DNA of 64,000 bases. Source: Silvanigrella paludirubra (GTDB taxonomy: Bacteria > Bdellovibrionota_B > Oligoflexia > Silvanigrellales > Silvanigrellaceae). Made by a program: the position numbers and the translations under genes. Below, piece by piece: positions 7,893-40,799 of the stretch. Where the stretch lies: NCBI RefSeq assembly GCF_009208775.1, contig NZ_WFLM01000001.1, positions 413,325 through 477,324 on the forward strand. The letters run 5' to 3'. A model generated the notes under the pieces. It was not told where the DNA came from. It did not search any database and saw only the letters and a program-made list of their open reading frames with translations. How positions within the stretch are numbered: position 1 is the stretch's first letter; every line of letters starts with the position of its first letter.

Positions 7893-10800
7893 TTAATTAT
7901 ATCCTAGTTCTAATGAAAATTCACCAATAATACCTGTTTCAATTATATTCGATTTAATGGAATCTGTATTTGTATATCTACTTAAATAAAATAACTTTGC
8001 TCCGAAACCAAAAGCAGAACTTTGATGATTTATTTTTAACTCACCTTTATAACCATTTCCAATATATTTAAATCCATAATTAATTGGAAATGTCAAAATA
8101 TAACTTCCTTCAATTAGGGCTTTTATATTTTCTTTCTCAAAAAATTGATATCCAAGAGAAAGTTTATTATTTATAATATAAACTAATTTATCTTGCATCG
8201 TATTAAAACCCTGGGATTCATATACAATATCTTGTGAAATTGAGCTTTCTGCATTATAAATTACATCATAATTTGTTTTATAATTGACCCCAAAAAAAGT
8301 ACTAAATAAATATTTTTGGCGATTAATAATATCGTAAATAGGCGATTTTAATAAATCTACATATAAAACTTCTGAGCCAAAATAACTATACAAGTTGTCT
8401 TCCCAGTTTTGGTTTAAAGCGGCAGATAAGCTTGGACTTGCTGCAGAATAGAGAGCAGCATGTGAGTTAGAATTATTATTATACTCATTAAAAGTTAAGT
8501 ATCTTACTCCTAGATTCATATCTAAAGTATGAGGAGTATGTCTCCCATTATGACTCATAATAGTAACTTTTTCAGAAAAATTAGATTTTAAATTTTCACA
8601 TTTAACTAAAATTTTGTAAATATATTTTTCTTCATATAAAATGGATTTATCTTCAAATTGTCCATCTAATTCAGAAGAATGAATTAAGATAAAATCATCA
8701 AAATTTGGAGATTCTGAACGAAAAATTTCGTATTCCATTTTGATATTACTTTCTAATTTTTTCCAGCTTAGAAATATAGAGTTATCTTTTGAATATGCTA
8801 TTAAATCAATAGGCTCTTTTGGCGTTGTTATAATTGAGACGATATCAGAATTCACTTCTATATTTTCTTTATTTATTGCTGAAATAATATAAAATACTTC
8901 ATTTCCGGGTTTTACTTTTTTGTCTATAAAATGGTTGTCTTTAATGTTTTTTGCGATAGTTTCATAGTTATTTTCTTTTTCATAGGAACGTTTAATAGAA
9001 TATAAATAATTTGAGTTTGTTATTAATTTGTCCCAATTTATTTCAACATCATATTTTTCAATTAGATTCAATTTAATATTATTGACAGAATTTGATTTTG
9101 TTAAAATGCGAACGATATTTGATTCTATTTTTTTATTATATTCATTTTCAGCAATGATTTTATAAAAATATTGAAAACCATTTAAAGCGGATTTATCAAT
9201 GAAATCGGTTTCATTTAAATTTTCAGTTATAACTTCATAAGTATTAAAATTATTTGGCGATCTTAACACAGAATATTTTAATGGTATATTTCCTAAATTT
9301 TTGTTCCAATTTAAATGGACTTCTGAGTTTTCATAAGAAATATTTAGTTTAATTTTACTATGTTCTGTTTTTGTTGAAAAAATATTAGAATATATTTCGA
9401 CGCCATCTTCATTTTTACCAATAATCTGATAAAAGTAATTACTATCATGTTTAATTCCTCTGTCTCTGAATAGTTTCATTTTCAAATTAGAAGCAATTGT
9501 TTTAAATTCATCATTTAGTGATGTAGATCTTAATACATCATATTTAATTGGTATTTTAGATTTTCCATCTTTCCAATCCAAATAAATATATTCCTTTTTT
9601 GAATAGCCATTTAATTCTATTTTATTTGGTGATGTATTAATAAATACTTCATTTGATAGAGAATAATTATCATTTGTATCAAATGTTTTAATGATATAAT
9701 AATATTTTACACCGGGTTTTGCCGTATTGTCTTCAAAAAATAAATTAGTTAGACCTTTTTTTATTGAATAATAACCTTTTTGACTATGTAAAGATCGTTT
9801 GACTTCATAAGTAATTGGTAGATATGATTTTGCCTCATCCCATTTTAAAATAATTTTATTTTTTTCTAGTTTTGATATTAAATTGAGAGCAGGAGTGGGT
9901 CTTGTATGAATGATTTCTATATTAGATTCTATTTTATTTTTTTCTTTATCATAACCAATGATTTTGTAGTAATAGCTCATGCCATCTTTAATAGATAAAT
10001 CTTCATAAAAATGAGATTGTATATTTTTTTCAATGATCTGATAATTATCTTCATCATAAGAAGATTTTAAAATTTCATAGGTGTAATTTTTTCTAGTTGT
10101 TCTTTTTTTCCAATTCAATATAATATGATTTTTGTCATATTTAAGTTTAAGTATAATTTCAGAATTTTCTATTTTATTACTATTTGTCTTATTTTTTGTT
10201 ATGATTTCTTTTTTATCATCTGGTATATTAGTTTTATTTTTATCATAAATTTCAAAAAATTCTTTGAAAGAAAGTTTTTTAAGATCCGTTTTTTCTGAAT
10301 TTGATGAACTTAATATAATTAAATTTTCTCTATCTATTTCATTAATTTCTTTTAGCTTTGAAATTAGAATAGGGATAATTATAATCTCTTTAGGATATAT
10401 TAAATCGCCTTTTGATGGTTTTTTGTTAGGATTTAATTCTAGAGTTTTAAATAAATTCCCATTCTTTCCATAAATTGGAGAAGCGCCGTATTTTTTAAGT
10501 AATATACTTATCATATCTCCTTTTTTTACAGTATGTTCTATGTAAACATAACCTTCAGGTAATTGAGTTAATGTTTCAAGGGAAGCTTCTTTATAATGAA
10601 TTGATGTGCTAAACTCATATTTTTTTAAATTAATTGCAAATTCATCTTTTTTCACTTCATAATTTGCTTTTTTGGGCAAAATTACGACTTCTCCTGGATA
10701 AATTAGATGGCTATTTTTTTTTCTTTTATTCTTGTTTAATTTTATAAATTCTTCAATATTCCCATTTTTACCATAAATTGGTCTTAAATTTTTTTTAATT

Positions 10801-10943
10801 AAAATAGATTCTATAGTATCATATTTTTGAATAATGTATGATTCATAATTATTTTCTTCGGCTTCAGTTTTTGATATGATAATACAATTGCTAATAAAAT
10901 ATATGATTAAATATAAATAATATATTAATTTATTTTTACTCAA
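7893..10943 (-). CDS. LysM-like x2 / FN3 x6 / outer-membrane beta-barrel protein
   Basis: Predicted cell-envelope protein of 1016 residues. A signal peptide covers about residues 1-28. Two LysM-like modules follow (about 34-92 and 136-195), each with a family-specific insert P-I-Y-G-K-N-G-N and ending in I-Y-P-x-E/G-x-x-I-x-P. Six fibronectin III modules follow, recognisable from their B-strand tryptophans (LNWKK, LKWDE, LDWKD, LNWNK, INWDK, LSWKK). The last ~210 residues alternate amphipathic strands and resemble the C-terminus of the product at 32432-33973. LysM usually binds peptidoglycan and the barrel would sit in the outer membrane; this placement is inferred. The start is a TTG with AAGG upstream. 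It is divergent from the thioredoxin-like and giant FN3 genes. No enzyme motif is seen. Confidence 0.75.
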   Translation of the reverse strand: MSKNKLIYYLYLIIYFISNCIIISKTEAEENNYESYIIQKYDTIESILIKKNLRPIYGKNGNIEEFIKLNKNKRKKNSHLIYPGEVVILPKKANYEVKKDEFAINLKKYEFSTSIHYKEASLETLTQLPEGYVYIEHTVKKGDMISILLKKYGASPIYGKNGNLFKTLELNPNKKPSKGDLIYPKEIIIIPILISKLKEINEIDRENLIILSSSNSEKTDLKKLSFKEFFEIYDKNKTNIPDDKKEIITKNKTNSNKIENSEIILKLKYDKNHIILNWKKRTTRKNYTYEILKSSYDEDNYQIIEKNIQSHFYEDLSIKDGMSYYYKIIGYDKEKNKIESNIEIIHTRPTPALNLISKLEKNKIILKWDEAKSYLPITYEVKRSLHSQKGYYSIKKGLTNLFFEDNTAKPGVKYYYIIKTFDTNDNYSLSNEVFINTSPNKIELNGYSKKEYIYLDWKDGKSKIPIKYDVLRSTSLNDEFKTIASNLKMKLFRDRGIKHDSNYFYQIIGKNEDGVEIYSNIFSTKTEHSKIKLNISYENSEVHLNWNKNLGNIPLKYSVLRSPNNFNTYEVITENLNETDFIDKSALNGFQYFYKIIAENEYNKKIESNIVRILTKSNSVNNIKLNLIEKYDVEINWDKLITNSNYLYSIKRSYEKENNYETIAKNIKDNHFIDKKVKPGNEVFYIISAINKENIEVNSDIVSIITTPKEPIDLIAYSKDNSIFLSWKKLESNIKMEYEIFRSESPNFDDFILIHSSELDGQFEDKSILYEEKYIYKILVKCENLKSNFSEKVTIMSHNGRHTPHTLDMNLGVRYLTFNEYNNNSNSHAALYSAASPSLSAALNQNWEDNLYSYFGSEVLYVDLLKSPIYDIINRQKYLFSTFFGVNYKTNYDVIYNAESSISQDIVYESQGFNTMQDKLVYIINNKLSLGYQFFEKENIKALIEGSYILTFPINYGFKYIGNGYKGELKINHQSSAFGFGAKLFYLSRYTNTDSIKSNIIETGIIGEFSLELGYN

Positions 10944-11280
10944 GCAAACCTTGTCCTTATAAAACTTAAAAAATCATATATATTTCGGTATGTTTGCTTT
11001 TAGTTTTGAATATATTATTAAATATGTCTTTATTATGATTGGGAAAATATTATTCATTTATTGTTTTTTTTTAATTATAGTTGAAATGAATAAGCAAAAT
11101 TTTCGGAGTCAAACAAATGAATTGAAATCAAAAATTTAAATTAAATTCGTTATGATATCCATAACCGAAAAAAATCAGTTTTTTGCTATCTCTAAAATAT
11201 GATATTTTTATGTCAATTTGATGAATCTATTTTATAAATTAACTTCTTTTTTGTTATAATTAAAAAAAGAGGAGCTATTT
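10944..11280. other. Divergent intergenic region
   Basis: A 337-base, extremely AT-rich region between divergent envelope genes; no ORF of substance. Besides the CCGAA box it holds a palindrome GTTATG-ATATC-CATAAC at 11149-11165, a possible operator, and TATAAT at 11255-11260 just before the ribosome site (GAGGAG) of the 11281 gene. No convincing -35 was found for that TATAAT. Confidence 0.45.
10974..10988 (-). promoter_or_regulatory. CCGAA box upstream of LysM-like/barrel gene
   Basis: CCGAAATATATATGA on the coding strand, its first base 45 nt before the TTG start at 10943. The same box, consensus CCGAAWAYMTATRKA, is found at nearly the same distance before the other three LysM-like genes of the window. 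The 3' half (TATGAT) may be the -10 hexamer. Confidence 0.5.
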
Positions 11281-12378
11281 ATGAATATTAAAAAAATATT
11301 TACCCTATTTTTAATTTTATTGGCTGGGTTTATTTTAGGTGTTGGTTTTTCAAATAAAATTTTGCCCATTTTTAATAAAGAAATTGACATTGATGATATA
11401 TTTGGGAAAAAACTAATTGAAGTAGATGGGATTCGTTTTACTTCAACCTCATTACCAAAAGAATCCATTTATGATTATTATAACCTAAAAAATAATATTT
11501 ATCATGCTGAAAAAAATTTCTTAAACCAGACAGCTTTAAGAATTGCATTAACAAATGATTTTAATAAAAAAAATGCAAAACAGGAAGATTTTTTAACTTT
11601 GAAAGACTTGATTAAGTTAGATTATATTGATGATAAAATTGTGAAAAACTATTATGATGATATTTTAAAAAAAGAAGGAGTTGGTGTTTTCCAAGGAAAA
11701 ACATTTGAAAATCTCAAAATACAATTGAAAAATCAGTTGATAAATCAAAAAATGATAGAAATTTCTGAGAAAAAAATAACTGAACTTCTTAAAAATAATA
11801 GAATTAAAATTCTAATCCCTGACTTAGAAAATCCTCCATTAAATATTGATATTTCATCTTTTCCTTCCTCAGGAAAAAAGCAATCTGAAATAACCTTATT
11901 AAATATTTATGATTATAATGAATTAAAAAGTAAAGAAAAAGAGGAAAAATTTGAAAAAATATTCAAAAAATATGGAGACAAGGTTAATTTTGTTTCAATA
12001 CATTATTCGTCAAATAATAATAAAATGAATGAAATTTTAATAAACGGAGCTTATTGTGCTCAAAAACAAGGGACCACTTCATTTTTAAAATATAATAAGA
12101 TGATCTTTCAACTTTCTTTATGGAAAGAAAAAAATTTATCTAACATAAAAGATATTAAGAATAAAGTAATAGAAATTGCAAAGTCATCAAATTTAAATTC
12201 AGAGATCTTTCAATCTTGCTTAGACTCTCAAAAAACATTAATTGAAAATCAATTGATACAACATCAATTAAGCAACTCATTCATAATTAAAAACTCACCA
12301 AATTTTTATATAAATAAAAATTCGAAATTATATTCACAAGAAGAAATAGAGCAGGCTTTAAGAAGGACTGTTCATTAA
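11281..12378 (+). CDS. Membrane-anchored DsbA-like thioredoxin-fold protein lacking CXXC
   Basis: A 365-residue protein with an N-terminal membrane anchor or signal (residues 6-24), then a helical segment with the look of a SurA/peptidyl-prolyl-isomerase N-terminal region (about 40-175), then a DsbA-type thioredoxin_4 domain (about 200-355). The fold is traced by ITLLNIYDY, FEKIFKKYGDKVNFVSIHY, AYCAQKQGTTSFLKYNKMIF, SEIFQSCLDS and the cis-Pro strand NSPNFYINKN. At the place of the catalytic CPxC (about 211-217) it reads DYNELKS, so it cannot be a normal thiol oxidoreductase. It precedes the giant FN3 lipoprotein by 88 bases on the same strand; a chaperone or assembly role for that protein is possible but inferred. 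A good GAGGAG ribosome site supports the ATG. Confidence 0.7.
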   Translation: MNIKKIFTLFLILLAGFILGVGFSNKILPIFNKEIDIDDIFGKKLIEVDGIRFTSTSLPKESIYDYYNLKNNIYHAEKNFLNQTALRIALTNDFNKKNAKQEDFLTLKDLIKLDYIDDKIVKNYYDDILKKEGVGVFQGKTFENLKIQLKNQLINQKMIEISEKKITELLKNNRIKILIPDLENPPLNIDISSFPSSGKKQSEITLLNIYDYNELKSKEKEEKFEKIFKKYGDKVNFVSIHYSSNNNKMNEILINGAYCAQKQGTTSFLKYNKMIFQLSLWKEKNLSNIKDIKNKVIEIAKSSNLNSEIFQSCLDSQKTLIENQLIQHQLSNSFIIKNSPNFYINKNSKLYSQEEIEQALRRTVH

Positions 12379-12466: not shown

Positions 12467-15400
12467 TTGAAAATTAATATTATATCAAAATTTTATATAT
12501 TTATGATATTAATTAATATGTTTTGTCTTTCTTGTAACTATAATCCTTTAGGGGGTTCCAATTCACATGTGGATATTGGAAATACTCCATTTTTAAATAC
12601 ACCAGCATCGTTTTATATCACATCAGCTTTAGCGGATGATAGCAAAGTTTATTTAAACTGGTCCGATTCACTTCGAGCTGATAATTATTCTGTAGTTTAC
12701 GGAAGTTCTAGCGGAAATTATCCGAATAAAGTTAAATCTTGCAGTTCAATAAAGTTAAAAAAATGTTTAGTCGATAATTTATCAAATGGTGTTACTTATT
12801 ATTTTAGTATCATAGCTACAAATAAATATGGCTCTATTAATTCAACAAATGAAGTTTCATTAACGCCTTCAATTTTTTCAATTATTGTTAAACCAAGTTC
12901 TCAAACTGCTTTGATAACTTGGGGCAATATTGATGGTGGATTAGGAAATACAACCTATACACTTCAATATGGAACTTCACCAGGAAGTGTGTCTCAAAGT
13001 ATTTCTGGAGTGACAAGTTCTTATTTGGTAACAGGTCTCATTGATGGGTTTACTTATTATTTTCAGATTATTGCAAGCAATGACTCTGGAAATGTAGCAA
13101 GTAACACAGTATCAGCGCTTATCATAAATCCTCCATCTACTCCTACTTGGAATGGATCACCAAGCATTACTTCAAATTTAGTTACTTTAAATTGGAATGC
13201 CGCAGCCGGATCGGGAACAATAACATATTCATTATATCGTAGTTTAGTTTCTGGAAGTCAATATGAAATTGTCCCTAGTTGTTCATCTATTAGTGCTTTA
13301 ACTTGTACTGATGATGCAGTAAATTTAATTCCTGCAAATTTATATTATTATATATTAATTGCGACAAATGAAGGAGGAAACTCTCCTTCTTCTTCAGAAA
13401 TAAACATCACTACATATCCTGCAATACCAAATACTTTACTTGTCTCAGCTGCTTCTGCATCTAGTAATTTATTAAGTTGGTCATCTTTATATGGAAATGC
13501 TAATATTACGTTTAATATATATAGATCAATATCATCACCTGTTGGGATTATAATTGGAAATAAAATTGGAACTTCAAGTTCAACATATATTTCACCTAAT
13601 TTAAATTATTTAGATATCACTTCATTTTTAGAAAATAAAATATATTATTATACTTTGACAGCAACGGACATAAGTGGAACTTCTTCAAATTCAATTGAAC
13701 AAAGTATACCCTCTTCTTTATTAACAGCGCCTTCTTTATTGTCTTCTTCATCTGTATCTTCAAATTCACTAACATTAAATTGGACATTAAGTGTTGGAAA
13801 CGCTCCATTAACTTTTAATGTTTATAGATCATTGACAAGTTCGCCAGCTAGTTGGGGTAGTCCTATTTATTCTGGAACATCTTCTTCGTTTATAGATAGT
13901 TCATTATCGGAAAATACGAATTATTATTACAAAGTTGGCGCATTAAATTCAAGGCCAAATGCAACGGAACAGGTTTCATCAGTATTTAGTACTTTAACTG
14001 CTTTACAAACGCCTCCTTCATTACTATCACCTACAAATGTAACTTATAATTCAATTACATTAAATTGGAATAGTTTACCAAATAATGGAACAGTTACTTA
14101 TCAATTATTTAGATCTACTACGGGTTTAGCAGGAAGTTGGGGATCTGCTATTTTTACGACAACTTCAGCACTTACGTATACAGACAGTACAGGTTTATTA
14201 GAAAATAAAAATTATTATTATATGTTAACGGCTATAAATAATGCTACTGGTGCAACGGCATTGAGTTCAAATATAATTTCGGTAGCCACGGCTATAAATA
14301 CTATTCCCACATTTAATACGGCAACAAATGTAACTTCATCTTCAATTACTTTAAATTGGAATGCATCACCAAATAATGGAGCTGTAACATATAATTTATA
14401 TCGATCAACGAGTGGGATTTCAGGAACCTGGGGAAATCCTATTTATACAGGTTCATCATTAACTTACATTGATAATAATAATGGTCTTGGATTATCAGAA
14501 AATACAAATTATTATTATTATGTTTCAGCAATAAATAATTCACCAGGAGTAACAGCAGTTAATTCAACTACTTTACAAGTTACCTCTGCTTTACAAACAA
14601 TACCATCGTTTATTTCTCCTGCAACAAATGTCACATCTAGTTCTATAACTTTAAATTGGAATATTGCGCCAAATAACGGAACAGTTACTTATAAATTATT
14701 TAGATCAACAACCGGTTTGGCTGGTAGCTGGGGATCCGCTATTTTTACAACAACTTCAGCACTGACATATACAGATAGCACTGGATTAATAGAAAATAAA
14801 AATTATTATTATATGCTTACAGAAACAAACTTATCACCAAGCGCTGTTACATTGAGTTCAAATAACTTTACGGTAACTACAGATTTGCTTTCTTCACCAA
14901 GTTTTATTTTGCCTGCAACAAGTGTGACAGACAATTCACTCACAATTAGTTGGAACCCCGTTCCTAATAATGGAACTGTTTATTATAGTTTATACCGTTC
15001 TACAACGGGCGTAGCAGGAACTTGGAGCGGTCCTATTAATTCCTCTTCAAGTGCAACTTCATTTAGTGATTCTGGACTTAGTGAAAACACAAAATATTAT
15101 TATATGGTCTCAGCATCAAATTCTTCACCAACACCAACAACGAGAAGTTCTTCTTCAACAAACGTAACAACTGCTTTATTGTATGCCCCTACTTTATATG
15201 CAAGTACAGTTTCTACAGCTTCTGTTACCTTACAATGGAATGCTTCAAATGGAAATGGAGCTGTTCAATACAATATTTATCGTTCTACCTCTTTGCCAGT
15301 AAGTACAGCTTCTGGAGCGATTTGTTCTAATGTAACATTAACGTCTTGTACTGATTCTACAGTAAGCGCAAGTAATATTTATTATTATTTAATTACAGCA

Positions 15401-18400
15401 ACAAATTCACAGAATACCATAACCGCAAATTCTCCTATAACGGTCACTACTTTACCTAATACACCTTTAGCTCCAACAATAGTTGCTACAAATGGAACAG
15501 TCGTTTTAAATTGGGCGCAAAGTTCGGGTGCAGCAACTCCGTCATTAATGACTTATTTAGTTCAGCGTTCTCGATCTCTTGCAACGGGTTATCAAGATGT
15601 AAGTGGCTGTTCAAGTGTTTCTAATTCAAGTTTAACATGTACAGATATTGTTCCTGTAGTTGATGGAAATCCTTATTACTATAAAGTAACAGCAATGACT
15701 GCAGGTGGTTCTTCTCCTGCTGCAAGTTCGGCAACAACAGTGACTCCTATAACTAATATTTCATCCGTGAGTGTAATTGTAACGGTAAGTAATGTCACTT
15801 TAAGTTGGAGTGGAGGAACAGGAGCAAGTAATTTTGCAGTTTATAAATCAACAACAGCAGCAGGATCTGCTCCTAGTAATGGTGGAATAAATACGGGTTG
15901 TACCAGCTCACCTTGTTCCTTTAGTGTTTCTTCTGGGCAAGAAATTTATTACACAATTGTTGCAAGTAATTCAGCAACGAACTCTTCTGCATCTACAACA
16001 TCAAATGAATATTCTGCTGTTGTTCACTCTTCTCCAATAGGAACTTTAATAACTCAACCTAATCAAGTTTCTTTAACTTGGAGTTCTGTAGCAAATGCAA
16101 CAAATTATACAGTTTATTATTCTTCAACATCTGGGACTGCAATTAGTGGAGGTGTTGTAGGCTGCGATGCAAATTTATCTCTATCATGTTCAATTACAGG
16201 ATTAACAAATGGGCAAACCTATTATTTTGCTATCGTTATTACAAAATCAATTGGTGGTACGTTTAATGGAACAGAAGAGCTTGGTATTCCTATAGGCAAT
16301 TTTGATATTACATCTATATCTCCCACAAGTGCAACAACCGCAAATATTAATTGGAGTACTTCTTTAGGTGCAACTAGCTATGATATTATTTATGGAACAA
16401 GTTCTGGAAATTATACTGTTACTTTGCCCACGGTGAGTTCTTCAGTTACCTTGCCGTATTCTTTTTCTGGGCTTTCTGCAGGAAATTTATATTATGTGAT
16501 GGTAGTTGCAAAAAATGCCTATGGCTCGGTTAATGCAAATGCAGAACAGCAATTACAAATGCAAGTTGGTACGCCAACGGGCCTTTCTGTTTCTAGTGTG
16601 ACTTCATCTTCTTCTTCATTATTTTGGAATATATTTTCAGGAAATCCTAATGTAACATATAATATTTATCGTTCAAATAGCAACTCTTCCCCATTTGTTG
16701 CAAATCCATCAGCCGCTGCTTGTTCTATCGTTTCAACAAGTTCGCCAAATAATGTGTGTACGGATTCAGGTTTAAGCGAAAATACAAATTATTATTATGT
16801 AATTACTTCATCTAATTCACTAGGAGAATCGGCTCAATCAAGTATAGTTTCTACAACTACAGCATTAAGTACAATTCCATCATTTAATACAACAACAAAT
16901 ATTACTCCATCTGCTATGACATTAAATTGGAATTCTGCCCCTAATAATGGCGCAGTTGCGTATAAACTTTATCGTTCTACATCAAGTGCAACTGGTCCAT
17001 GGACAGGGCCAATAAACTCATCTTCAACTGCATTAACTTATTCAGATACTGGTTTATCTGAAAATACAAACTATTATTATTATGTTTCTGCAACAAATAC
17101 AGCTCCAAGTGCTGTTCCATTAAGTTCTTCGGTTCTTTCTATATCTACTGCTTTATCTACTATTCCGACATTTATAACTCCAGCTACTAACGTAACAGAC
17201 AATAGTCTCACTTTAAATTGGAATTCAGCACCAAATAATGGAATCGTTACTTATAAATTATATCGCTCAACAAGCGCAACAGGCCCTTGGATAGGTCCTA
17301 TTAATACACCATCTAGTTTAACTTCATTTTCAGATACAGGTTTATCTGAAAACACAAATTATTATTATTATGTTTCAGCATCTAATTCTTTATCAGGAGC
17401 TGCCGCTATAAACTCTGCGGTAACTCAGGTAACTACAGCGATTTCGACAACTCCTACTTTTATTACACCTGCAACTAGTATAACAACTTCTAGTTTAAAA
17501 TTGAATTGGAATTCAATTCCAAATAATGGAACAGTTACTTATAAATTATATCGATCAACAACAGGGGCCTTGGGAAGTTTTGGTTCTGCTATTTTTACCA
17601 CAAATTCAGCAACTTCTTATTCTGATTCCGCATTGAGTGAAAATACAAATTATTATTATCAACTAACTGTTACGAATAATGCACCGAGTGCTCAAACAAT
17701 AACATCATCGACATTTTTAGTAACTACAGCTCTTGTCACAACTCCAGTTATCATTTCAGTTACAAATGTTACTTCTTCTGCTTTGAAAATAAGTTGGAGC
17801 TCAGCACCAAGTAATGGTTCTGTTACCTATAATTTATACCGTTCCTTAACGGGGAGTGCGGGAAGTTGGGGTACAGCTATTTATTCTACTTCAAGTGCAA
17901 ATTTTTATAATGATTCTGGTTTAAGTGAAAATACAAATTATTATTATATGGTCTCTGCAACAAATAATTCTGGTGCAACAAATATAAATTCAAATTCATA
18001 TTTAGTTACGACAGCAATAGCAACTTTACCATCATTTATTATATCATCGACAACGGCCACTGCAACTTCTATACAACTGACATGGAGTACAATTCCGAAT
18101 AATGGAACTGTTACTTACAGTTTGTATCGCTCTACAACAGGAATTGCAGGTACATGGGGCACTGCAATTAACACCACAACGAGTGGGACAAGTTATTCAG
18201 ATACAGGATTAAATGAAAATACGATTTATTATTATTTATTAACAGTAAGCAATAATGCTCCAGGGGCAACGCCTCTTAATTCTACAACTTATTCAGTAAC
18301 AACAGACTTACAATCGTTGCCAACATTTAATTCAGCAACAAATATTACATCAAGCTCCATTACTCTGAATTGGAATTCTTTTGCTAATAATGGAACAGTT

Positions 18401-21400
18401 ACTTATAAATTATATCGATCTTTAACCGGTGCTGTAGGAAGCTGGGGATCACCTATAAATACCCCATCCGCTTTAACAACATTTACAGATTCGGGATTAA
18501 GTGAAAATAATATTTATTATTATATGGTAACAGCTTCCAACTCAACAATTACGCCAACAACAAAAAATTCTACAACTCAAACAAATACAACAGCATTAGC
18601 AACTCCTCCTGTATTAACTAATATTGCTTATTCAACAACAACGGGAACATTTCAATGGAATGCAGTCTCTGGAAATGGATCTGTAAATTATTCTTTGTAT
18701 CGTTCGACTTCTTTACCAGTCAGTACTTCAGGAGGGGCTATTTGTACAAATCCTGCTAGTAATACTTGCACAGATAGTACAATGGTATCAAGTTCAGTTT
18801 ATTATTATGTTGTTACGGCAACAAACTCACAAAATACAGTTACCTCCACTGTTATTACAGTAACAACAAAACCAAATACACCAACAGCACCCACAACAAG
18901 TGCAACAGATGGTTCTGTTACGATAACATGGGCTTCCAGTGTAGGATCTGGAACATCGGCAATTACATCATATTATGTTCAAAGATCTAGAGTATTAGGT
19001 TCTGGATATCAAAATGTAAATGGATGTACAAATATTTCAGATTCAAGTCGCTCTTGTATTGATATTGTTCCTACAGTTGATGGAAGTCCTTATTATTATA
19101 AAGTAACAGCATTTACTCCTGGCGGAGATTCTTTAGCTGCGAGTTCTGCAACTACGGTAACACCAATAACACCAATTACTTCTGTTACAACAGTAACATC
19201 ATCAACAAATATTATTTTAAGTTGGAGTGGCGCAACGGGTGCTTCTTCTTACAAGGTATATAGTTCAACAACGGTTGGAGGCTCTGTTCCAGCCACAGGA
19301 ACATTAACGGCTTGTTCTTCTTCTCCATGCAATTTTACGGTAGGAACTCTTGGTCAAACGATTTATTATACTATTGTTGCTTCAAACTCAGGAACAAATA
19401 CAACAGCAACAACTCAATCTGCAGAAGCTTCGGCGACTCCTTTAAATTCTCCGTTATTACAAGTAACAGCGCAAAATTCTCAAATTACTGTGAGTTGGTC
19501 TTCAGTAACAAACGCAACGAATTATAAAATTTATTATTCTTCAACATCAGGCCAAGCAATCAGCGGAAATGTATTGGGATGTGATGCCTTGTTAACTTTG
19601 TCTTGCACAATTTCTGGATTAACAAATGGTCAAACATATTATTTTGCTCTTTCTGTAACAAGAAGTATTGGTGGAACTTTTATTGGAACGGAAGCATCTG
19701 GTGTACCAATTGGAAGTTTATCCATAACTTCTATTCTCTCTGCAACAAACACGGCTAATGTAACGTGGACAACCTCTTCTGGAGCAACGAGTTATGATGT
19801 GACTTATGGAACTGTTTCTGGAACTTATACAAATACTTCAAATATTGTTGCTGTCGCTGGATCTAGTCAGTCAGCTACGATTGCATCTTTAAGTGCAGGC
19901 ACAACGTATTATTTTATGGTTCGAGCAAAAAATTCAAATGGCTCGGTTAATGCTAATGCTGAATATATTACTGTGACAACTCCTATTTCGCCTTCTGGAT
20001 TTTCTATTTTAGGAGCTTCAAATAATACTTCAACTTTGCAGTGGAATAATAACGTAACAAATTTAGGAATTACATATAAAGTATATCGTTCCTCTCAAAG
20101 TAGTTTTAATATAACAGATTCTGGTGTTGTTTTTGCTTGTTGGTTTTATACAGCTTCATCATCTCCATCACAATTAAGTTGTGTTGATAATACAACACCA
20201 ACATTAACTGAGAATACAAAGTATTATTATAAAATTATCGCAGTTACAGATGCGGTAGTTTCTATTTCATCTCTTTCTTCAAGTTCTTCAAGCGCCATTT
20301 CTGTTACAACTCAATTTAATCCAACAAATAGTTACAGTTTAAGTGTTTCGAATTTAACTTCTACTTCTTTAACACTGACCTGGAATTTAAATGTAGGTAG
20401 TGAGTCTATTTCTTATGCTGTATTTCAATCAAATTCTGCATCAGCAGCATCAACTGGTGTTGTTATTAATTGTTCTCCTGCTGTTTCAAGTTCCTTGCCA
20501 ACGGCAACAAACGTTTGTAATGTATCAGGCTTGTCTCAAAATCAACAATATTATTTTGCTGTAAAAGCATCTAATAATGCTCCTCTTGGTTCAACAACAT
20601 TGATATCAAATGATCTAGCTGTTGTAACGCCAATTGCATCAAATACAACTTTTACACCTATTGCTTCAAATGTTTCAGATACTTCTGTTACTTTAAGTTG
20701 GGTATTTAATTATGGAAACTCAAATGTTAATTATACAATTTTACAAAATGGTGTAGCTGTTACTTCTGGTCAAGTATCTACATGTACTTTGTCAAATAAA
20801 ACTCCTTCAAGTACACAAGTAAGTTGTAATGTTACTGGAATTAGTCAGAACACTTCTTACGCATTTTCTGTTAAAGTAACAAACGTTTCTTTAGCTACAT
20901 CTACAATTACCTCAAATTCAGTAAGTATTATTACTCAGTTTACTTTAGCAACTACTTTTGTTTTATCAGCAGGATCAGCTTCTGATACAACGGCCACTTT
21001 AACTTGGATTATGAATGTAGGAACATCTTCTGTTAATTTTTCAGTTTTATCTTCTGGTACTTCTGTATCGGCTTCAAGTATATCAGGATGTCTCTTAACT
21101 GGAAAAACACCATCATCAACTCAAGTTTCTTGTACAGTAACAGGATTAACACAGAATACCAGTTATGCATTTTCTATTCAGGCAACAAATTCGGCAACGG
21201 GAGGAAGTACAAGTATTGTTTCAAATACTTTAAATGTTATTACACAAATTTCTGCTTCAACAACATTTTCGGTATCGGCAACCCCAGTTACCGATTTAAC
21301 AGCTACTTTAAATTGGGTATTTAATTATGGAAATTCTTCTATGAATTATACCATATTAATTAATGGAAGCCCCGTCTCTGCATCACAAATTCTTGGATGC

Positions 21401-24301
21401 ACATTATCAAATGTTTCAGTTTCTTCAACTGCTGTGAGTTGTCAGGTAACAGGATTGGCACAAAATACAAATTATATATTTAAAGTTCAGGCAACAAATA
21501 ATGCTACTGGAGGTGGTAATACTGTCACCACTTTACCTATAACAGTCATAACTCAATTTACAGCGGGTACTTCTTTTGTTTTATCATCTGGAAGCGTAGC
21601 AGATACATCTGTTACATTAAATTGGGTTATGAACGTTGGAAATGCTTCAGTCAATTATTCAGTTTTATCTTCTGGAAGTGCGCTCTCTGCATCTAATATT
21701 TCAACTTGCTCATTGACAGCTAAAACTCCCACTTTAACTCAAGTTTCATGTACTGTAAATGGATTGATACAAAATACAGATTATTCATTTTCTATTTCTG
21801 CAACTAATAATGCAACTGGTGGTTCATCTAGTATAACTTCTAATTCATTGTCTGTGACAACTAAATTTACATCAGGAACTTCTTTTTCCATTACACAAAG
21901 TAACAACACAACTGGAACAAGTTTAACTTTAAATTGGACTTTGAGTGTTGGTTCTTCAAATGTGAATTATACTGTTTATCAATCTGGTAATCAAATATCT
22001 CCGACATGTACATTAACTTCTGTTTCTCCTTCTACAGCAGTTTCTTGTTCGATAACGGGATTGACTGAAAATACATCATATAATTTTCAAGTTGTTGCTA
22101 CTAATGCTAATAGTTCATCAATTAATTCAAATATTTTAACAGTAATTACAGTTCCAGTAACTGCGCCAACTGGTTTAAAGGCGTCTATTCCAAATACAAC
22201 ATCAATAAGTTTGAGTTGGAGTGCATATAGTTATGGATCTGCCCCTGTTACTTATTATGTTTACGCTTCGACAAGTTCTTCTATAACAACTGGAACAGGG
22301 TCTTTAGTCTGTTCTAATATTTCTATTTTAAGTTGCTCTACTTCGCTGGTTGCTGGGACAAATCTTGTCGTTGGAACTACGTATTATTTTATTCTTGTTG
22401 TAAAAAATTCATCTGGAACATCTATTGCATCTAATAATTTAACTCCTATTAGCATAAAATTTTCTGCTCCCACAAATATAACAATTCCTTCAATAAGTGG
22501 GATCTCTACATCTGCTATTGTATCAAGTGCAGGGACTGCAGTAACAGGATCAATTGGAACTTGGACAGATTCAAATAGTTGTTCTTATAAATGGTATTTA
22601 AATAACATTCAAATTTCAGGTGCGACAAATTTAACATACACAACCCAGTCATCTGACGTTTGTGGAATATTATCTTTTAGTGTTACCTGTACAAATGGAT
22701 TAGGAACAAGTACGGTTTATAATTCTTCACCAGATAATTCAGTTGGTATAAATACAACTTCAATAATAAGTGATTATGCATTAAGAGCTACAAATGCAAA
22801 TGCAACAGGAAAATCACAAATTAAAAGTTATTTAGATCAATTAATTTTAAATAGTTTTCCTTTGCCAAATGTTTTATATGGTATGTTATCAAGCCAAAAT
22901 ATGGGTACAGGAACTGTTATATATGATCTTTATTGTAATGGACATAATGCAACTCCTACTTCCATTAATACATGGGATAATACAGGTGGTGTTATTTCAA
23001 ATGCGAATGGATTAGGTACAATATCGAATATTTTTACAAGTAACAATTCAACAATAGTAGCCGTTAATAAAAGCCCTTCAGTTGGAGCGCAAGGAAAAGG
23101 AGTATTTGGTTATACAGCAGGTGGAGCGATTAATAGTTTTGGATATGGCGCAAATACATCATCTCTTTTATTTGAAAAATTTACTAATATGACATTATTA
23201 ACTCCTTTAGCTCAGGGAAGATTTGATTTTTGGGGATTGTCACTTAATGGAACAGCCGCTGTTTCTCAATTTAATGAATTTCAGCATATAGATACAATAG
23301 ATACTGTAAAAACAGGTGGATTAATTCTTGGGAGTTTAGATAATACCGCAAATACGGGATTGCAAGATTACTTAACTTTTGTTTCTGCATGGAACGGAAC
23401 CACATTTACTGCATTACAATTAGAAACCATAAGAAGAATTACACAAACAACTGTTGCATCTTCTGTAAATAATTTTCCATCTTTTCTTTATGTTGGAAAT
23501 GCGAATTCCGGACAAAGCGTTAGTGTTTGTAATGTGAATCAATCTACGGGAGCGCTTAGTGGTTGTGGGGCAACGGGATCGGGTTATTCTACTCCTATTG
23601 GCTTGGCTCGATATAATAATTTTCTTTATGTTGCAAATTCAGGATCAAATACTTCGAGGTGCACAATTAATACGGTTACGGGTCAGCTATCTTCATGTGG
23701 TTCTGTAAATTCATTTAAACCCTATGGTTTGGCAGTGAGTAATGGTTTATCCGGAGCTTATTTATACGAAGTGCAAAATGGAATAGTACAAATGTGCACT
23801 ATAAATACAACAGATGGATCTTTAAGTGGATGTTCAAATCAAGCAACAGGATATTCAAATACATCTGGTGTAACATTTAATTATTATAATGCACCCTACC
23901 TTTATTTTACAAATAGAAGTTCTAGTAGCGTCTATAAATGCAATGTAAATTCTTCTAATGGAACATTAAGTGGTTGCACTTCAACGGGAAGTGCATTTAA
24001 TGGTCCTACCGGAATTGTGATTAATAATGGTTATGCTTATATTCCAAATGCAGGTAATGCGTCTGTTACTTTGTGTACTGTAAGTAAAACAGATGGTACT
24101 TTAAGTGCCTGTTCGATTGCAGCAAGTGGAGGTCTTTATAGCAGTACAGAGGGAGTAAGTGTGATTAATAATTATTTATATATTGCAAATTGGGGAAATA
24201 GCTCTGTGGTTAAATGCAATATTTCTTTAACAGATGGCTCATTAAGCTCTTGTGCAGCAACAGGAAATGGTTTTAGTGGTGCTATAGGTATTGGATGGTA
24301 A
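12467..24301 (+). CDS. Giant FN3-repeat lipoprotein with C-terminal beta-propeller
   Basis: Predicted surface protein of 3944 residues. A TTG start with ATGAGGAAG upstream gives a hydrophobic leader ending FCLSC (Cys23), a probable lipobox. From about residue 38 to 3330 there are about 34 fibronectin III modules of about 95 residues, counted from the B-strand tryptophan (LxLxWx), most ending ENTNYYYxVxAxN. An Ig-like module follows (KWYLNNIQISGATNLTY). Next comes a ~230-residue beta-rich region of unknown type. Last are six propeller blades, each with a cysteine pair in a pattern C-x(9,10)-C and TG/DGxLSxC (about 3669-3944). Charged residues are rare and Ser/Thr/Asn very abundant. An adhesin or surface scaffold role fits the architecture; no enzymatic motif is seen. 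Type 9 or type 1 secretion signals are not evident. Confidence 0.8.
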   Translation: MKINIISKFYIFMILINMFCLSCNYNPLGGSNSHVDIGNTPFLNTPASFYITSALADDSKVYLNWSDSLRADNYSVVYGSSSGNYPNKVKSCSSIKLKKCLVDNLSNGVTYYFSIIATNKYGSINSTNEVSLTPSIFSIIVKPSSQTALITWGNIDGGLGNTTYTLQYGTSPGSVSQSISGVTSSYLVTGLIDGFTYYFQIIASNDSGNVASNTVSALIINPPSTPTWNGSPSITSNLVTLNWNAAAGSGTITYSLYRSLVSGSQYEIVPSCSSISALTCTDDAVNLIPANLYYYILIATNEGGNSPSSSEINITTYPAIPNTLLVSAASASSNLLSWSSLYGNANITFNIYRSISSPVGIIIGNKIGTSSSTYISPNLNYLDITSFLENKIYYYTLTATDISGTSSNSIEQSIPSSLLTAPSLLSSSSVSSNSLTLNWTLSVGNAPLTFNVYRSLTSSPASWGSPIYSGTSSSFIDSSLSENTNYYYKVGALNSRPNATEQVSSVFSTLTALQTPPSLLSPTNVTYNSITLNWNSLPNNGTVTYQLFRSTTGLAGSWGSAIFTTTSALTYTDSTGLLENKNYYYMLTAINNATGATALSSNIISVATAINTIPTFNTATNVTSSSITLNWNASPNNGAVTYNLYRSTSGISGTWGNPIYTGSSLTYIDNNNGLGLSENTNYYYYVSAINNSPGVTAVNSTTLQVTSALQTIPSFISPATNVTSSSITLNWNIAPNNGTVTYKLFRSTTGLAGSWGSAIFTTTSALTYTDSTGLIENKNYYYMLTETNLSPSAVTLSSNNFTVTTDLLSSPSFILPATSVTDNSLTISWNPVPNNGTVYYSLYRSTTGVAGTWSGPINSSSSATSFSDSGLSENTKYYYMVSASNSSPTPTTRSSSSTNVTTALLYAPTLYASTVSTASVTLQWNASNGNGAVQYNIYRSTSLPVSTASGAICSNVTLTSCTDSTVSASNIYYYLITATNSQNTITANSPITVTTLPNTPLAPTIVATNGTVVLNWAQSSGAATPSLMTYLVQRSRSLATGYQDVSGCSSVSNSSLTCTDIVPVVDGNPYYYKVTAMTAGGSSPAASSATTVTPITNISSVSVIVTVSNVTLSWSGGTGASNFAVYKSTTAAGSAPSNGGINTGCTSSPCSFSVSSGQEIYYTIVASNSATNSSASTTSNEYSAVVHSSPIGTLITQPNQVSLTWSSVANATNYTVYYSSTSGTAISGGVVGCDANLSLSCSITGLTNGQTYYFAIVITKSIGGTFNGTEELGIPIGNFDITSISPTSATTANINWSTSLGATSYDIIYGTSSGNYTVTLPTVSSSVTLPYSFSGLSAGNLYYVMVVAKNAYGSVNANAEQQLQMQVGTPTGLSVSSVTSSSSSLFWNIFSGNPNVTYNIYRSNSNSSPFVANPSAAACSIVSTSSPNNVCTDSGLSENTNYYYVITSSNSLGESAQSSIVSTTTALSTIPSFNTTTNITPSAMTLNWNSAPNNGAVAYKLYRSTSSATGPWTGPINSSSTALTYSDTGLSENTNYYYYVSATNTAPSAVPLSSSVLSISTALSTIPTFITPATNVTDNSLTLNWNSAPNNGIVTYKLYRSTSATGPWIGPINTPSSLTSFSDTGLSENTNYYYYVSASNSLSGAAAINSAVTQVTTAISTTPTFITPATSITTSSLKLNWNSIPNNGTVTYKLYRSTTGALGSFGSAIFTTNSATSYSDSALSENTNYYYQLTVTNNAPSAQTITSSTFLVTTALVTTPVIISVTNVTSSALKISWSSAPSNGSVTYNLYRSLTGSAGSWGTAIYSTSSANFYNDSGLSENTNYYYMVSATNNSGATNINSNSYLVTTAIATLPSFIISSTTATATSIQLTWSTIPNNGTVTYSLYRSTTGIAGTWGTAINTTTSGTSYSDTGLNENTIYYYLLTVSNNAPGATPLNSTTYSVTTDLQSLPTFNSATNITSSSITLNWNSFANNGTVTYKLYRSLTGAVGSWGSPINTPSALTTFTDSGLSENNIYYYMVTASNSTITPTTKNSTTQTNTTALATPPVLTNIAYSTTTGTFQWNAVSGNGSVNYSLYRSTSLPVSTSGGAICTNPASNTCTDSTMVSSSVYYYVVTATNSQNTVTSTVITVTTKPNTPTAPTTSATDGSVTITWASSVGSGTSAITSYYVQRSRVLGSGYQNVNGCTNISDSSRSCIDIVPTVDGSPYYYKVTAFTPGGDSLAASSATTVTPITPITSVTTVTSSTNIILSWSGATGASSYKVYSSTTVGGSVPATGTLTACSSSPCNFTVGTLGQTIYYTIVASNSGTNTTATTQSAEASATPLNSPLLQVTAQNSQITVSWSSVTNATNYKIYYSSTSGQAISGNVLGCDALLTLSCTISGLTNGQTYYFALSVTRSIGGTFIGTEASGVPIGSLSITSILSATNTANVTWTTSSGATSYDVTYGTVSGTYTNTSNIVAVAGSSQSATIASLSAGTTYYFMVRAKNSNGSVNANAEYITVTTPISPSGFSILGASNNTSTLQWNNNVTNLGITYKVYRSSQSSFNITDSGVVFACWFYTASSSPSQLSCVDNTTPTLTENTKYYYKIIAVTDAVVSISSLSSSSSSAISVTTQFNPTNSYSLSVSNLTSTSLTLTWNLNVGSESISYAVFQSNSASAASTGVVINCSPAVSSSLPTATNVCNVSGLSQNQQYYFAVKASNNAPLGSTTLISNDLAVVTPIASNTTFTPIASNVSDTSVTLSWVFNYGNSNVNYTILQNGVAVTSGQVSTCTLSNKTPSSTQVSCNVTGISQNTSYAFSVKVTNVSLATSTITSNSVSIITQFTLATTFVLSAGSASDTTATLTWIMNVGTSSVNFSVLSSGTSVSASSISGCLLTGKTPSSTQVSCTVTGLTQNTSYAFSIQATNSATGGSTSIVSNTLNVITQISASTTFSVSATPVTDLTATLNWVFNYGNSSMNYTILINGSPVSASQILGCTLSNVSVSSTAVSCQVTGLAQNTNYIFKVQATNNATGGGNTVTTLPITVITQFTAGTSFVLSSGSVADTSVTLNWVMNVGNASVNYSVLSSGSALSASNISTCSLTAKTPTLTQVSCTVNGLIQNTDYSFSISATNNATGGSSSITSNSLSVTTKFTSGTSFSITQSNNTTGTSLTLNWTLSVGSSNVNYTVYQSGNQISPTCTLTSVSPSTAVSCSITGLTENTSYNFQVVATNANSSSINSNILTVITVPVTAPTGLKASIPNTTSISLSWSAYSYGSAPVTYYVYASTSSSITTGTGSLVCSNISILSCSTSLVAGTNLVVGTTYYFILVVKNSSGTSIASNNLTPISIKFSAPTNITIPSISGISTSAIVSSAGTAVTGSIGTWTDSNSCSYKWYLNNIQISGATNLTYTTQSSDVCGILSFSVTCTNGLGTSTVYNSSPDNSVGINTTSIISDYALRATNANATGKSQIKSYLDQLILNSFPLPNVLYGMLSSQNMGTGTVIYDLYCNGHNATPTSINTWDNTGGVISNANGLGTISNIFTSNNSTIVAVNKSPSVGAQGKGVFGYTAGGAINSFGYGANTSSLLFEKFTNMTLLTPLAQGRFDFWGLSLNGTAAVSQFNEFQHIDTIDTVKTGGLILGSLDNTANTGLQDYLTFVSAWNGTTFTALQLETIRRITQTTVASSVNNFPSFLYVGNANSGQSVSVCNVNQSTGALSGCGATGSGYSTPIGLARYNNFLYVANSGSNTSRCTINTVTGQLSSCGSVNSFKPYGLAVSNGLSGAYLYEVQNGIVQMCTINTTDGSLSGCSNQATGYSNTSGVTFNYYNAPYLYFTNRSSSSVYKCNVNSSNGTLSGCTSTGSAFNGPTGIVINNGYAYIPNAGNASVTLCTVSKTDGTLSACSIAASGGLYSSTEGVSVINNYLYIANWGNSSVVKCNISLTDGSLSSCAATGNGFSGAIGIGW
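15180..16570 (+). repeat. First copy of five-module FN3 super-repeat (modules 10-14)
   Basis: Encodes modules matching those at 18600-19985 in the same order, including YRSTSLPVST, VDGxPYYYKVTA, NGQTYYFA and GSVNANAE segments. Corresponding tryptophans lie 3420 bases (twelve modules) apart. Confidence 0.75.
18600..19985 (+). repeat. Second copy of five-module FN3 super-repeat (modules 22-26)
   Basis: Matches 15180-16570 module by module. Protein similarity is high over shared segments such as YYSSTSG and TNGQTYYFA, but the DNA has diverged at many third positions, so the duplication is not recent. Confidence 0.75.
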
Positions 24302-24306
24302 ATAAT

Positions 24307-26064
24307 TTATTGAGGTAAATAAGCAGATAATCTCAAAAGAATTCCTATCTCAGTATAATCAAAAGTAACTGGTGGAATATTTGTAATATATCTTGAATAA
24401 TGTAGACGTGCTCTTACTTCCCAATCTTTTGTTTCATAACTAGAGACAAAAGCGGCTTCATAACCGGTTCCAATTTGAGAAGCATATATTTCATTATTAA
24501 AAGGGGTATTTATTAAAAAAGCGGCTTCTCCATTAAATTTTAATTTTTCAAAATTTAGAAATGTATATCCCCCTAAAATCTTTATTTTTGCTGTTGCCAT
24601 TTTTTCTACTTGCATTGTATTTGAATTGATAGCTCTAAATAAAAGCGCATCACCATATCCATACTCCATGTTTCCATAAAAATCTGGAAAAAAATAATAT
24701 TTAATACCTAAAAAATAATTTGTAAGTCGAATGATATCATCACCAATTACCACAGAAGTATCTGATTGCATTATTTGTGTTACCCCAAAATTAATTCCAA
24801 AATAGGAATATAAACTTGGTGTCCATTTTTGAATTAGGCCGCCTTCTACGCTTATCATTAATCTTGAGAGAAGCTTTGCAGATGTTCCATTATCATTATC
24901 CTTTTCGATAAGTCTTAGGTATTTTCCTCCGCCTTCAAAATAAACCATATGATTGCTGTTATCTTTGTCTTCTTGTTTTTCTTGAACTAAACTATTTTCT
25001 AGAGTTTGACTTTTTTGAATACTTTCTAAACAAATCACTTCTCCTTCTTTAAATTTAGGATTATTTTTTTTTATGTTTGGATTTAATGAAAGAGTTTGAT
25101 TAAAAGAACCATTTATTCCATAAATAGGTATTCTTTTTTGGGATCTTAAAATTTCAATTAGGCTTTCTCCTTCTTTTGTTTTATATTCCATGCATTTTAA
25201 ATTTGCAACGGGTTCGCTTTGCAGGTTTTGTTTAATTTTATCATCTGTTTTTTTGTTTTCATTTATTTTTTTTGTTTTTATATTTTTGTTTTTATTTTCA
25301 GTAATAATTTTATTATGAGGGATTTCTTTTTTCTCTGTGGATAAATATTTCTCTTTTTTTTCTTTGTTTAAAATTGGATTAAATTCATAACTTATTTTTA
25401 AATTTTCATTTTCATTTATTTTTTCTGTGTTTTCAATAATATGATTTTCTTCATTGATCTTATTAGCTATTATGTTGTTTTTAAATGGAAGGCATAAATT
25501 ACTATTTATTTTTAAATTTTTAATATCTTTATCTGATAAAGTATTTAACTTTAATGTTTCTTCTAATGAACCCATTTTTCCAAAAATTGGAAATAATTTT
25601 TTTTCCCTTAGTATTGTAAATAAAGTATCTCCTTTATGAATTGTATAGTCTTGACATATTTTTGTCGAAATATTTTTTTGCTCAATATTTTCTTTTGGAT
25701 TATTTTCAATTTTAGGAATTACATTGTCTATTTTTTTATTCTCAATTGTTTTAATGTTTATAGTAATATTGTTTTTTTGAGGAAGGCAGATGACATCTCC
25801 TTTGTATACTAAATTTTTATTTTCATTTTTATTTTTACTTTGCAATTTATAAGTTTTAGCAAGAGATCCTTCTTTTCCAAAAATAGGATATAAAGAGTGT
25901 TTTTTAAGGATAAAAACTATATTTTCATTTTCTAATACTGTATATTTTTGACAATTATTTTCACTTATTAATACTTCTGATTTTATAGATTTTGAGCAAT
26001 ACAAAGATAGAATGATTGTAATAAAAATAAAAATTTTCAATTTTATAGGATGCAAGCTTTTCAA
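24307..26064 (-). CDS. LysM-like x3 / outer-membrane beta-barrel protein
   Basis: A 585-residue predicted envelope protein with a signal peptide (about residues 8-28) and three LysM-like modules (about 40-95, 135-190 and 290-350), each with the P-I-F/Y-G-x-x-G-S insert. The modules are separated by Lys/Asn/Glu-rich linkers. The C-terminal ~210 residues form an amphipathic barrel domain homologous to the product at 33998-34849, with shared segments around FxxNxEYxYGxxLxFRA and GxGYEAA/GNGFETA. It converges on the giant FN3 gene with five bases between stops. The TTG start gives the leader, but the ribosome site (AGAAAGA) is weak. LysM suggests peptidoglycan contact and the barrel outer-membrane location, both inferred. 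Confidence 0.75.
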   Translation of the reverse strand: MKSLHPIKLKIFIFITIILSLYCSKSIKSEVLISENNCQKYTVLENENIVFILKKHSLYPIFGKEGSLAKTYKLQSKNKNENKNLVYKGDVICLPQKNNITINIKTIENKKIDNVIPKIENNPKENIEQKNISTKICQDYTIHKGDTLFTILREKKLFPIFGKMGSLEETLKLNTLSDKDIKNLKINSNLCLPFKNNIIANKINEENHIIENTEKINENENLKISYEFNPILNKEKKEKYLSTEKKEIPHNKIITENKNKNIKTKKINENKKTDDKIKQNLQSEPVANLKCMEYKTKEGESLIEILRSQKRIPIYGINGSFNQTLSLNPNIKKNNPKFKEGEVICLESIQKSQTLENSLVQEKQEDKDNSNHMVYFEGGGKYLRLIEKDNDNGTSAKLLSRLMISVEGGLIQKWTPSLYSYFGINFGVTQIMQSDTSVVIGDDIIRLTNYFLGIKYYFFPDFYGNMEYGYGDALLFRAINSNTMQVEKMATAKIKILGGYTFLNFEKLKFNGEAAFLINTPFNNEIYASQIGTGYEAAFVSSYETKDWEVRARLHYSRYITNIPPVTFDYTEIGILLRLSAYLPQ

Positions 26065-32405: not shown

Positions 32406-32431
32406 GATTAAATTTTTTGGAGAGACTAATT

Positions 32432-33973: not shown

Positions 33974-33997
33974 TATGAATTATAAGGAGGATTCATA

Positions 33998-34849
33998 TTG
34001 TTTAATAGAAAAATAAGATATATTAAATTACTTATACTTATTTTAATTTCATATTATTTATCATACGATTTGCATGCGGAAGAGCTGACAACAACAGCTG
34101 CCGCAATAGAAACTGAAAAAACGGAACAAAAATCAGAATTAAATAATGAAAAATTAAATAACCCAAGTAATAATTCAGAGAAAGAAAAAAAAGAGAATGA
34201 CAAACCATTTAATTCATTTTATTTAGATGGTGAGTTTCGTTATTTTTCTATATCTGGTACAGATCAGCTTTATAATGTTTCACAAAAGTTAACATTTAGA
34301 GCTGCTTCTCTTGAAGAAGTAGGATTTATTCAAAATTGGCATAAAGATTTTAAATCCTATTTAGGAGTAAACTATTCAATTTTACAAGTTTCAGACTCCA
34401 ATGCAGGAATTACTATAAATAATAGTGTTAATAGAGAAATAAATTTTGTTGCTGGCGCTAAATATAATCTCTTCTCTTTTTTATATTTACAAACAGAATA
34501 TAGTTATGGAGGAATCCTTGTTTTTCGTGCTTTAAATCTTCAATCTGTTAAAATTGAAAGTATATTTATATCAAAATTAAATATGGGTGGCGGGATTACA
34601 TTTTTAAATTATTCATCCTTTGGAATACATGCAGAGGGAGCATATGATCTTGTATTTCCTAATAACGATTCGAATTATGGTAACATAAGTGGTAATGGAT
34701 TTGAAACAGCACTTCTTTTTACTTACGAAAGAAATGATTGGGGTATAAAAAGTAAATTTTATTATAATTCTCTAAATTTAAAAACAACACCAATAAATTT
34801 GCAGTATCAAGAATATGGAGTTCGACTAGGTTTTTATTTAGATTTATAA
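33998..34849 (+). CDS. Outer-membrane beta-barrel protein
   Basis: A 283-residue protein with a signal peptide to about residue 28 (ending LHAEE), a Lys/Glu/Asn-rich linker, and an amphipathic barrel from about residue 70. The barrel resembles the C-terminus of the product at 24307-26064 but the LysM-like part is absent. AAGGAGG lies seven bases before the TTG start, one of the best ribosome sites in the window. With the gene 24 bases upstream it reproduces, side by side, the two barrel types that flank the giant FN3 protein. This suggests the two barrels function as a couple. Confidence 0.75.
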   Translation: MFNRKIRYIKLLILILISYYLSYDLHAEELTTTAAAIETEKTEQKSELNNEKLNNPSNNSEKEKKENDKPFNSFYLDGEFRYFSISGTDQLYNVSQKLTFRAASLEEVGFIQNWHKDFKSYLGVNYSILQVSDSNAGITINNSVNREINFVAGAKYNLFSFLYLQTEYSYGGILVFRALNLQSVKIESIFISKLNMGGGITFLNYSSFGIHAEGAYDLVFPNNDSNYGNISGNGFETALLFTYERNDWGIKSKFYYNSLNLKTTPINLQYQEYGVRLGFYLDL

Positions 34850-40768: not shown

Positions 40769-40799
40769 TTTAATTACCTTTAAAAATAACTCATAATAA

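Follow-up and report, generated by a model that had tools for sequence, protein, structure and literature searches.

A 3944-residue probable FN3 lipoprotein in a four-gene cassette of Silvanigrella paludirubra: a candidate tethered surface rod

We found that a four-gene cassette of S. paludirubra probably builds a lipid-tethered rod on the outer surface of the cell, with a distal binding head, a pair of barrel proteins as its dock and a dedicated holdase. The cassette lies in a window of 64,000 nucleotides, the whole stretch of DNA that was analysed, and was compared across 58 genomes of the phylum (the source genome, 7 others of its genus and 50 others). Its architecture, the linkage of the four genes, the pairing of the two barrel proteins, a cysteine rule, a contrast in composition and the divergence of the head can all be read directly from the sequences. 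We found no description of a device that combines an FN3 rod, most of whose modules would carry a disulphide, with a lipid-type anchor, paired LysM-barrel proteins as docks and a chaperone of its own. A literature search on the giant protein likewise yielded no description, and the S. cienkowskii genome paper makes no mention of fibronectin, LysM or lipoprotein.

Architecture of the giant protein

The giant is encoded at 12467..24301 (+) by an ORF that opens with TTG, immediately 3′ of a well-matching Shine-Dalgarno-like GAGGAAG, and runs stop-free for 3944 residues. It scores 326.8 bits against Pfam fn3 (PF00041; E = 1.5e-99, gathering cut-off 25), which places it in the FN3 family as an earlier note on this DNA had claimed. 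No other protein of the source genome matches Pfam fn3 at E ≤ 0.001; the shorter FN3 stretches of the proteins A and A′ described below are visible with a custom HMM. Modules of about 90-100 residues were delimited with an iterative HMM built from the giant's own modules. This resolves exactly 34 contiguous modules at residues 46-3330 (12602..22456, +), so that the earlier count of about 34 was right.

The N-terminus (12467..12535, +) carries a lipoprotein-type signal peptide up to a putative lipidated Cys23, which is preceded by F-C-L-S and opens the motif C[ND][YF]NPLGG. Both the Cys and the [ND][YF]NPLGG are kept in all seven giants that we found, and position -1 is always S or G; positions -3 and -2 are off-consensus in several relatives. 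The lipid anchor proposed earlier thus gains an invariant Cys and NPLGG motif, and although the lipobox is non-canonical, a lipoprotein signal is probable from the sequence. All seven giants are free of LPXTG sortase motifs and of RTX nonapeptide motifs, the latter setting them outside the type I RTX adhesins.

Between stalk and head, residues ~3331-3671 (22457..23479, +) are conserved across the seven giants. The first ~100 residues are possibly Ig-like, and for the following ~240 a ConA/LamG-like identity is a guess. We obtained no convincing Pfam or PDB match for this region, and its AF2 model is poor with low pLDDT. The Ig-like label given to part of it earlier is therefore unproven, while the description of an unassigned beta-rich region before the propeller still fits. 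A Nepo_coat_N match to the pre-propeller region (3e-4, in two members only) was treated as chance.

The last ~270 residues (23480..24298, +) are predicted to form the six-bladed beta-propeller that the earlier note had recognised, and six blades with one Cys pair each are readable in the sequence. The propeller matches Pfam Lactonase (PF10282) at E = 1.8e-7 (31.2 bits against a cut-off of 21.7) with six short blades, and its AF2 model has a pLDDT of about 83. Fold matches include YncE/lactonase-type, LRP6-type and 6-phosphogluconolactonase-like propellers, as well as BT1954-type surface propellers and the tandem YVTN-propeller of an archaeal surface-layer protein. Additionally, the source genome (G000) encodes five propeller proteins, two of them in tandem, whose blades have Cys pairs like those of the giant's head. 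Their loci (L002, L003, L007 and L008) lie at ~77.5-81.5 kb and ~195.1-196.0 kb of contig C5 and at ~348.9-349.7 kb and ~131.9-132.5 kb of C2. All four of these proteins that were read have a lipoprotein-type signal, and the group may represent short-stalk receptors or head donors.

The stalk follows a strict cysteine rule. Of 210 FN3 modules in the seven giants, 142 contain exactly two Cys and 68 contain none; not one module has one or three, where a random distribution with the same mean would give odd counts in about 47%. The second Cys occupies the same alignment column in all 142 Cys-bearing modules. Pairing at a fixed column implies that each Cys-bearing module forms one disulphide, which indicates an oxidising compartment. 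The stalks are also poor in charge (4-9%) and rich in S/T/N (35-44%), in contrast to the homologous FN3 modules of protein A, which are 23-29% charged and almost free of Cys. Because the modules of A lie between LysM repeats and a barrel, they are presumably periplasmic, and the contrast in charge and Cys suggests that the giant's modules are outside the cell.

The four-gene cassette and its barrel proteins

The cassette consists of A (LysM-FN3-barrel, 571-1059 aa), a chaperone-like gene (362-368 aa), the giant and B (LysM-barrel, 361-686 aa), and the four are adjacent in all seven giant-bearing genomes. The block sits between RuvA (or aquaporin) and EcsC in the window and in genomes G008, G009, G011 and G013. 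In Fluviispira multicolorata (G010) and G014 the cassette is found ~300 kb or more away on the contig among unrelated genes. The usual site is vacant in both genomes: only ~45-110 bp separate aquaporin from EcsC, and the second barrel pair is also absent. This indicates that the cassette moves as a unit. In G011 and G013 the chaperone-like gene is on the opposite side of the giant, still in the same orientation as the giant. Relocation and reshuffling of the block without loss of a member is strong evidence that the four genes serve one function. The earlier note had named lack of conservation of the neighbourhood among relatives as grounds for refuting it; its reading withstands this check, with the neighbourhood kept in all seven genomes and moved jointly in two. 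The conservation is within one GTDB genus rather than across the order.

In the window, protein A (7893..10943, -; 1016 aa, with an orthologue in all seven cassettes) has a signal peptide, two LysM-like repeats, six FN3 modules (8571..10136, -; 29% KRDE) and a C-terminal outer-membrane-type barrel (7896..8561, -), the last assigned by alignment and an AF2 model of the family. Its orthologue in G008 and G009 is 571 aa long with one FN3 module. Protein B (24307..26064, -; 585 aa) has a signal peptide, LysM-like repeats (LysM E-value 2.9e-4) and a C-terminal barrel predicted to be 10-stranded (AF2, Foldseek), and its 3′ end is 5 bp from the giant's stop. The window also encodes a second pair, A′ (32417..33973, +; 518 aa, LysM, two FN3 modules and barrel, by HMM and barrel tree) and B′ (33998..34849, +; 283 aa, barrel without LysM, by alignment and barrel tree), with no adjoining giant; this pair (32417-34849) occupies the same place in G011 and G013 and is absent from F. 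multicolorata and G014. Against the Pfam LysM profile (PF01476, cut-off 20.9 bits), B scores above at 21.2, and A′ (20.2) and A (14.8) score below. We also observed a 350-aa protein (45746-46798, -) that has a LysM-like stretch, is related to proteins A and B and has no Pfam match. The two flanking LysM/barrel proteins proposed earlier are both real, and directly upstream of the giant sits a SurA/DsbA-like gene (11281-12378) that had not been flagged.

A, B, A′ and B′ share a C-terminal domain of ~220 residues. AF2 modelling of this domain on six relatives predicts a beta-barrel of the outer-membrane type with ten antiparallel strands of 13-22 residues each (pLDDT 84.7, pTM 0.79). Foldseek ranks OmpT/Pla, autotransporter and FadL barrels among its matches, together with OpcA at full length (TM 0.57/0.57). 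The omptin matches, at 9-11% identity, reflect similarity of fold, and we do not claim family membership. Across the 58 phylum genomes, the barrel family profile hits the seven giant-bearing genomes and no others, with 2 or 4 copies each and always as A/B pairs; in the barrel tree A and B form separate clades (100/100 support), and the members of the second pair fall inside these clades. A and B therefore behave as an obligate pair. Accidental adjacency of the barrel proteins was ruled out by relocation of the unit and perfect co-occurrence with the giant.

The chaperone-like protein (11281..12378, +; 365 aa) has an N-terminal TM anchor, a helical part that we call SurA-like by eye, and a thioredoxin fold (Pfam Thioredoxin_4, 8.1e-6). 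The catalytic CxxC position lacks Cys in all seven orthologues, which conserve only two other Cys. This rules out a disulphide-forming enzyme of the ordinary oxidase type and leads us to infer a holdase for the giant. The divergent intergenic region between A and this gene (10944..11280, on the ORF map) is probably a promoter region shared by both.

Distribution, stalk length and divergence of the head

The giant is present in six of the seven other genomes of the genus, including Fluviispira and Spirobacillus; the genome that lacks it is 72% complete. It is absent from the 50 other phylum genomes, which comprise six genomes from other genera of the family, one genome from another family of the order and 43 more genomes of the class. 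A scan of contigs of 84,980 species returned two relatives, F. multicolorata and Spirobacillus cienkowskii (G008), so that neither search found a relative beyond the genus. In these searches the cassette occurs in a single, little-studied genus, whose members include the Daphnia pathogen S. cienkowskii as well as free-living species of fresh water.

The seven giants are 2802, 2802, 3432, 3442, 3944, 4266 and 4269 aa long, with 22, 22, 28, 28, 34, 38 and 38 FN3 modules, respectively. Compared with the nearer relatives, modules 1-4 and most of the last ones are colinear and 1:1 orthologous, and interior modules have been amplified in groups. Module 6 shares 78% identity with module 8, and the block 10-14 is repeated as 22-26 (lag 12). 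This pattern suggests a fixed anchor and head with an adjustable stalk. Seven intact ORFs of this length, with dN/dS of 0.08-0.19 along the whole giant, rule out a chance ORF or an artefact.

G008 and G009, the two Spirobacillus genomes, remain collinear for ~35 kb, with DNA identity of about 99% except in the cassette. A complete S. cienkowskii genome of 2.81 Mbp has an OrthoANI of 99.07% to the draft (PMC12321486). Within this stretch the giant forms the sole broad peak of divergence, with DNA identity of 84-93% in the mid-stalk and down to 69% in the propeller. The propeller has 55-71% protein identity and a dS of 0.7-1.0, where neighbouring genes have a dS of 0.01-0.15. The giant's first 200 residues lie near background, as do its last FN3 modules, where dS is mostly 0-0.19, and gene B, which follows the head directly and has a dS of 0.05. 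Since dS is high as well as dN, the head appears to have been replaced by a diverged allele rather than changed by point selection alone. An open ORF and normal sequence on either flank make misassembly in the G008 metagenome bin an unlikely source of the divergence. We looked for a silent reservoir of heads and found no second head copy in either genome. In G011 and G013 the head is conserved (92-93%), so that replacement is not constant. Separately, a patch of 90% DNA identity lies in the barrel of gene A (G008 C50:29032-29532 against G009), with barrel B nearly identical. No other spot in ~35 kb of these two near-identical genomes diverges as much, and the tip of the rod thereby offers a concrete and testable lead to what these bacteria recognise.

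Assembly, rival readings and known systems

In the reading that we consider probable, the giant would be exported, each FN3 module would be stapled by up to one disulphide, and the N-terminal lipid would keep the protein tethered. Assuming 3.2-4 nm per FN3 module, the rod would be roughly 110-135 nm long at 34 modules and 70-150 nm across the genus, with the middle domain and the propeller at the end away from the membrane as a binding head. The LysM/10-strand-barrel pair A and B, bound to peptidoglycan and seated in the outer membrane, would fix or dock the rod. The anchored SurA/DsbA-like protein, having lost its CxxC, would serve as a dedicated periplasmic holdase for a client of ~0.4 MDa. 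Tandem amplification of modules would set the reach of the rod and recombination would swap its head. The surface apparatus suggested earlier is partly supported: it fits the conserved cassette, and the divergent head and the contrast in Cys and charge suit an extracellular rod; surface exposure itself, adhesion or receptor binding, and docking by A and B are inferred.

Export is the point at which this reading is least complete. The A/B barrels look like anchors or docks rather than obvious exporters: ten-stranded barrels are probably too narrow for folded FN3 modules, and RTX motifs are absent. One rather doubtful extension of the probable reading is that the barrel pair and the CxxC-less chaperone are a hitherto undescribed pathway dedicated to the giant. 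A lipid-anchored, disulphide-stapled FN3 rod of 2800-4300 residues would then pass or be threaded to the surface and be held on the wall, which would make the cassette a new kind of display system for surface lipoproteins, with a head that recombines. The cassette makes the passage of such a lipoprotein across the outer membrane a tractable question.

A different surface role, which we regard as unlikely, is a surface layer or matrix fibre in which many copies of the giant cover the cell as a coat or sheath and shield it from grazers, phages or host defences. Variation of the head would then reflect escape from recognition, and its divergence is indeed also compatible with antigenic or receptor escape; the richness in S/T/N, the low charge and the archaeal surface-layer propeller among the fold matches fit a coat as well. 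A single gene copy, a lipid-type anchor and one terminal head are nevertheless easier to reconcile with a tethered probe than with a lattice, and we saw no sign of self-assembly.

The rod could instead remain inside the envelope, a reading that we hold to be quite improbable, as a periplasmic or inner-membrane-anchored scaffold, perhaps lying along the cell body and shaping or spacing the wall of helical, pleomorphic cells together with the LysM proteins. The main counter-evidence to a surface rod belongs here. All seven giants have N or D at +2 after the putative lipidated Cys, unlike R and S in BamD and Pal of the same genome, and in E. coli an Asp at +2 keeps lipoproteins in the inner membrane. 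The wall-binding LysM partners and the probably periplasmic FN3 domains of A point the same way. Hyperdivergence confined to the head of near-identical strains is, however, hard to square with a buried protein, a rod of 110-135 nm cannot span the periplasm crosswise, the composition of the giant's FN3 modules is opposite to that of A's, and stalk length varies from 22 to 38 modules. Finally, a surface exoenzyme with a catalytic (lactonase- or glycanase-like) propeller or middle domain and FN3 spacers, as in many bacterial glycoside hydrolases, is very improbable. Propellers of the lactonase type do serve in enzymes as well, but the Lactonase and 6-phosphogluconolactonase-like matches and a weak match of the FN3 region to exoglucanase CbhB are outweighed by a diverse head in which we identified no catalytic motif, an equivalog score of 98 against a cut-off of 1950 bits, 22-38 spacers where enzyme linkers are usually far shorter, and propeller-only paralogues that also lack a known enzyme domain.

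The giant resembles RTX adhesins and intimins in how it would work and fails their defining features. Like the giant RTX adhesins SiiE, LapA and MpIBP, it combines a long tandem beta-sandwich extender with a distal binding region (PMC7493085, PMC6272769). RTX adhesins use type I secretion and calcium-stiffened modules, whereas the giant has a lipoprotein-type N-terminus, no RTX nonapeptides, and an extender that is FN3, acid-poor and apparently disulphide-stapled. As in intimin and invasin (type Ve), LysM, an outer-membrane barrel, a beta-sandwich stalk and a distal head form one ensemble. Those proteins are single polypeptides with the passenger C-terminal of a barrel of 12 strands; the cassette divides the parts among three polypeptides, its predicted 10-stranded barrels are C-terminal with no passenger after them and its stalk is a separate protein, which distinguishes it from an inverse autotransporter. 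A putative lipid anchor with an outer-membrane barrel partner recalls SLAM-dependent, RcsF-through-OMP and Bacteroidota SusD/BT1954-type surface lipoproteins, but A and B have no SLAM domain by Pfam, the cassette encodes no TonB-dependent transporter, and the rod is ~0.4 MDa. Fold searches with the A/B barrel model place the ten-stranded omptins (OmpT, Pla) and OpcA among the best matches, at 7-12% identity and a TM of about 0.5-0.6; these proteins lack the N-terminal LysM/FN3 parts.

Elsewhere in the window, a UvrD-like helicase (1163 aa) and a PD-(D/E)XK nuclease (940 aa) overlap by 83 nt in an AddAB-like pair (37391-43622, -), which adjoins a DprA-like gene (43615-44508). No Pfam family matches a 928-aa protein (49364-52150, +) at E ≤ 0.001. 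A FliG-like gene complete with all three domains (27909-28892, -), with no flagellar neighbours noted, lies beside a CobW-like gene in all seven genomes.
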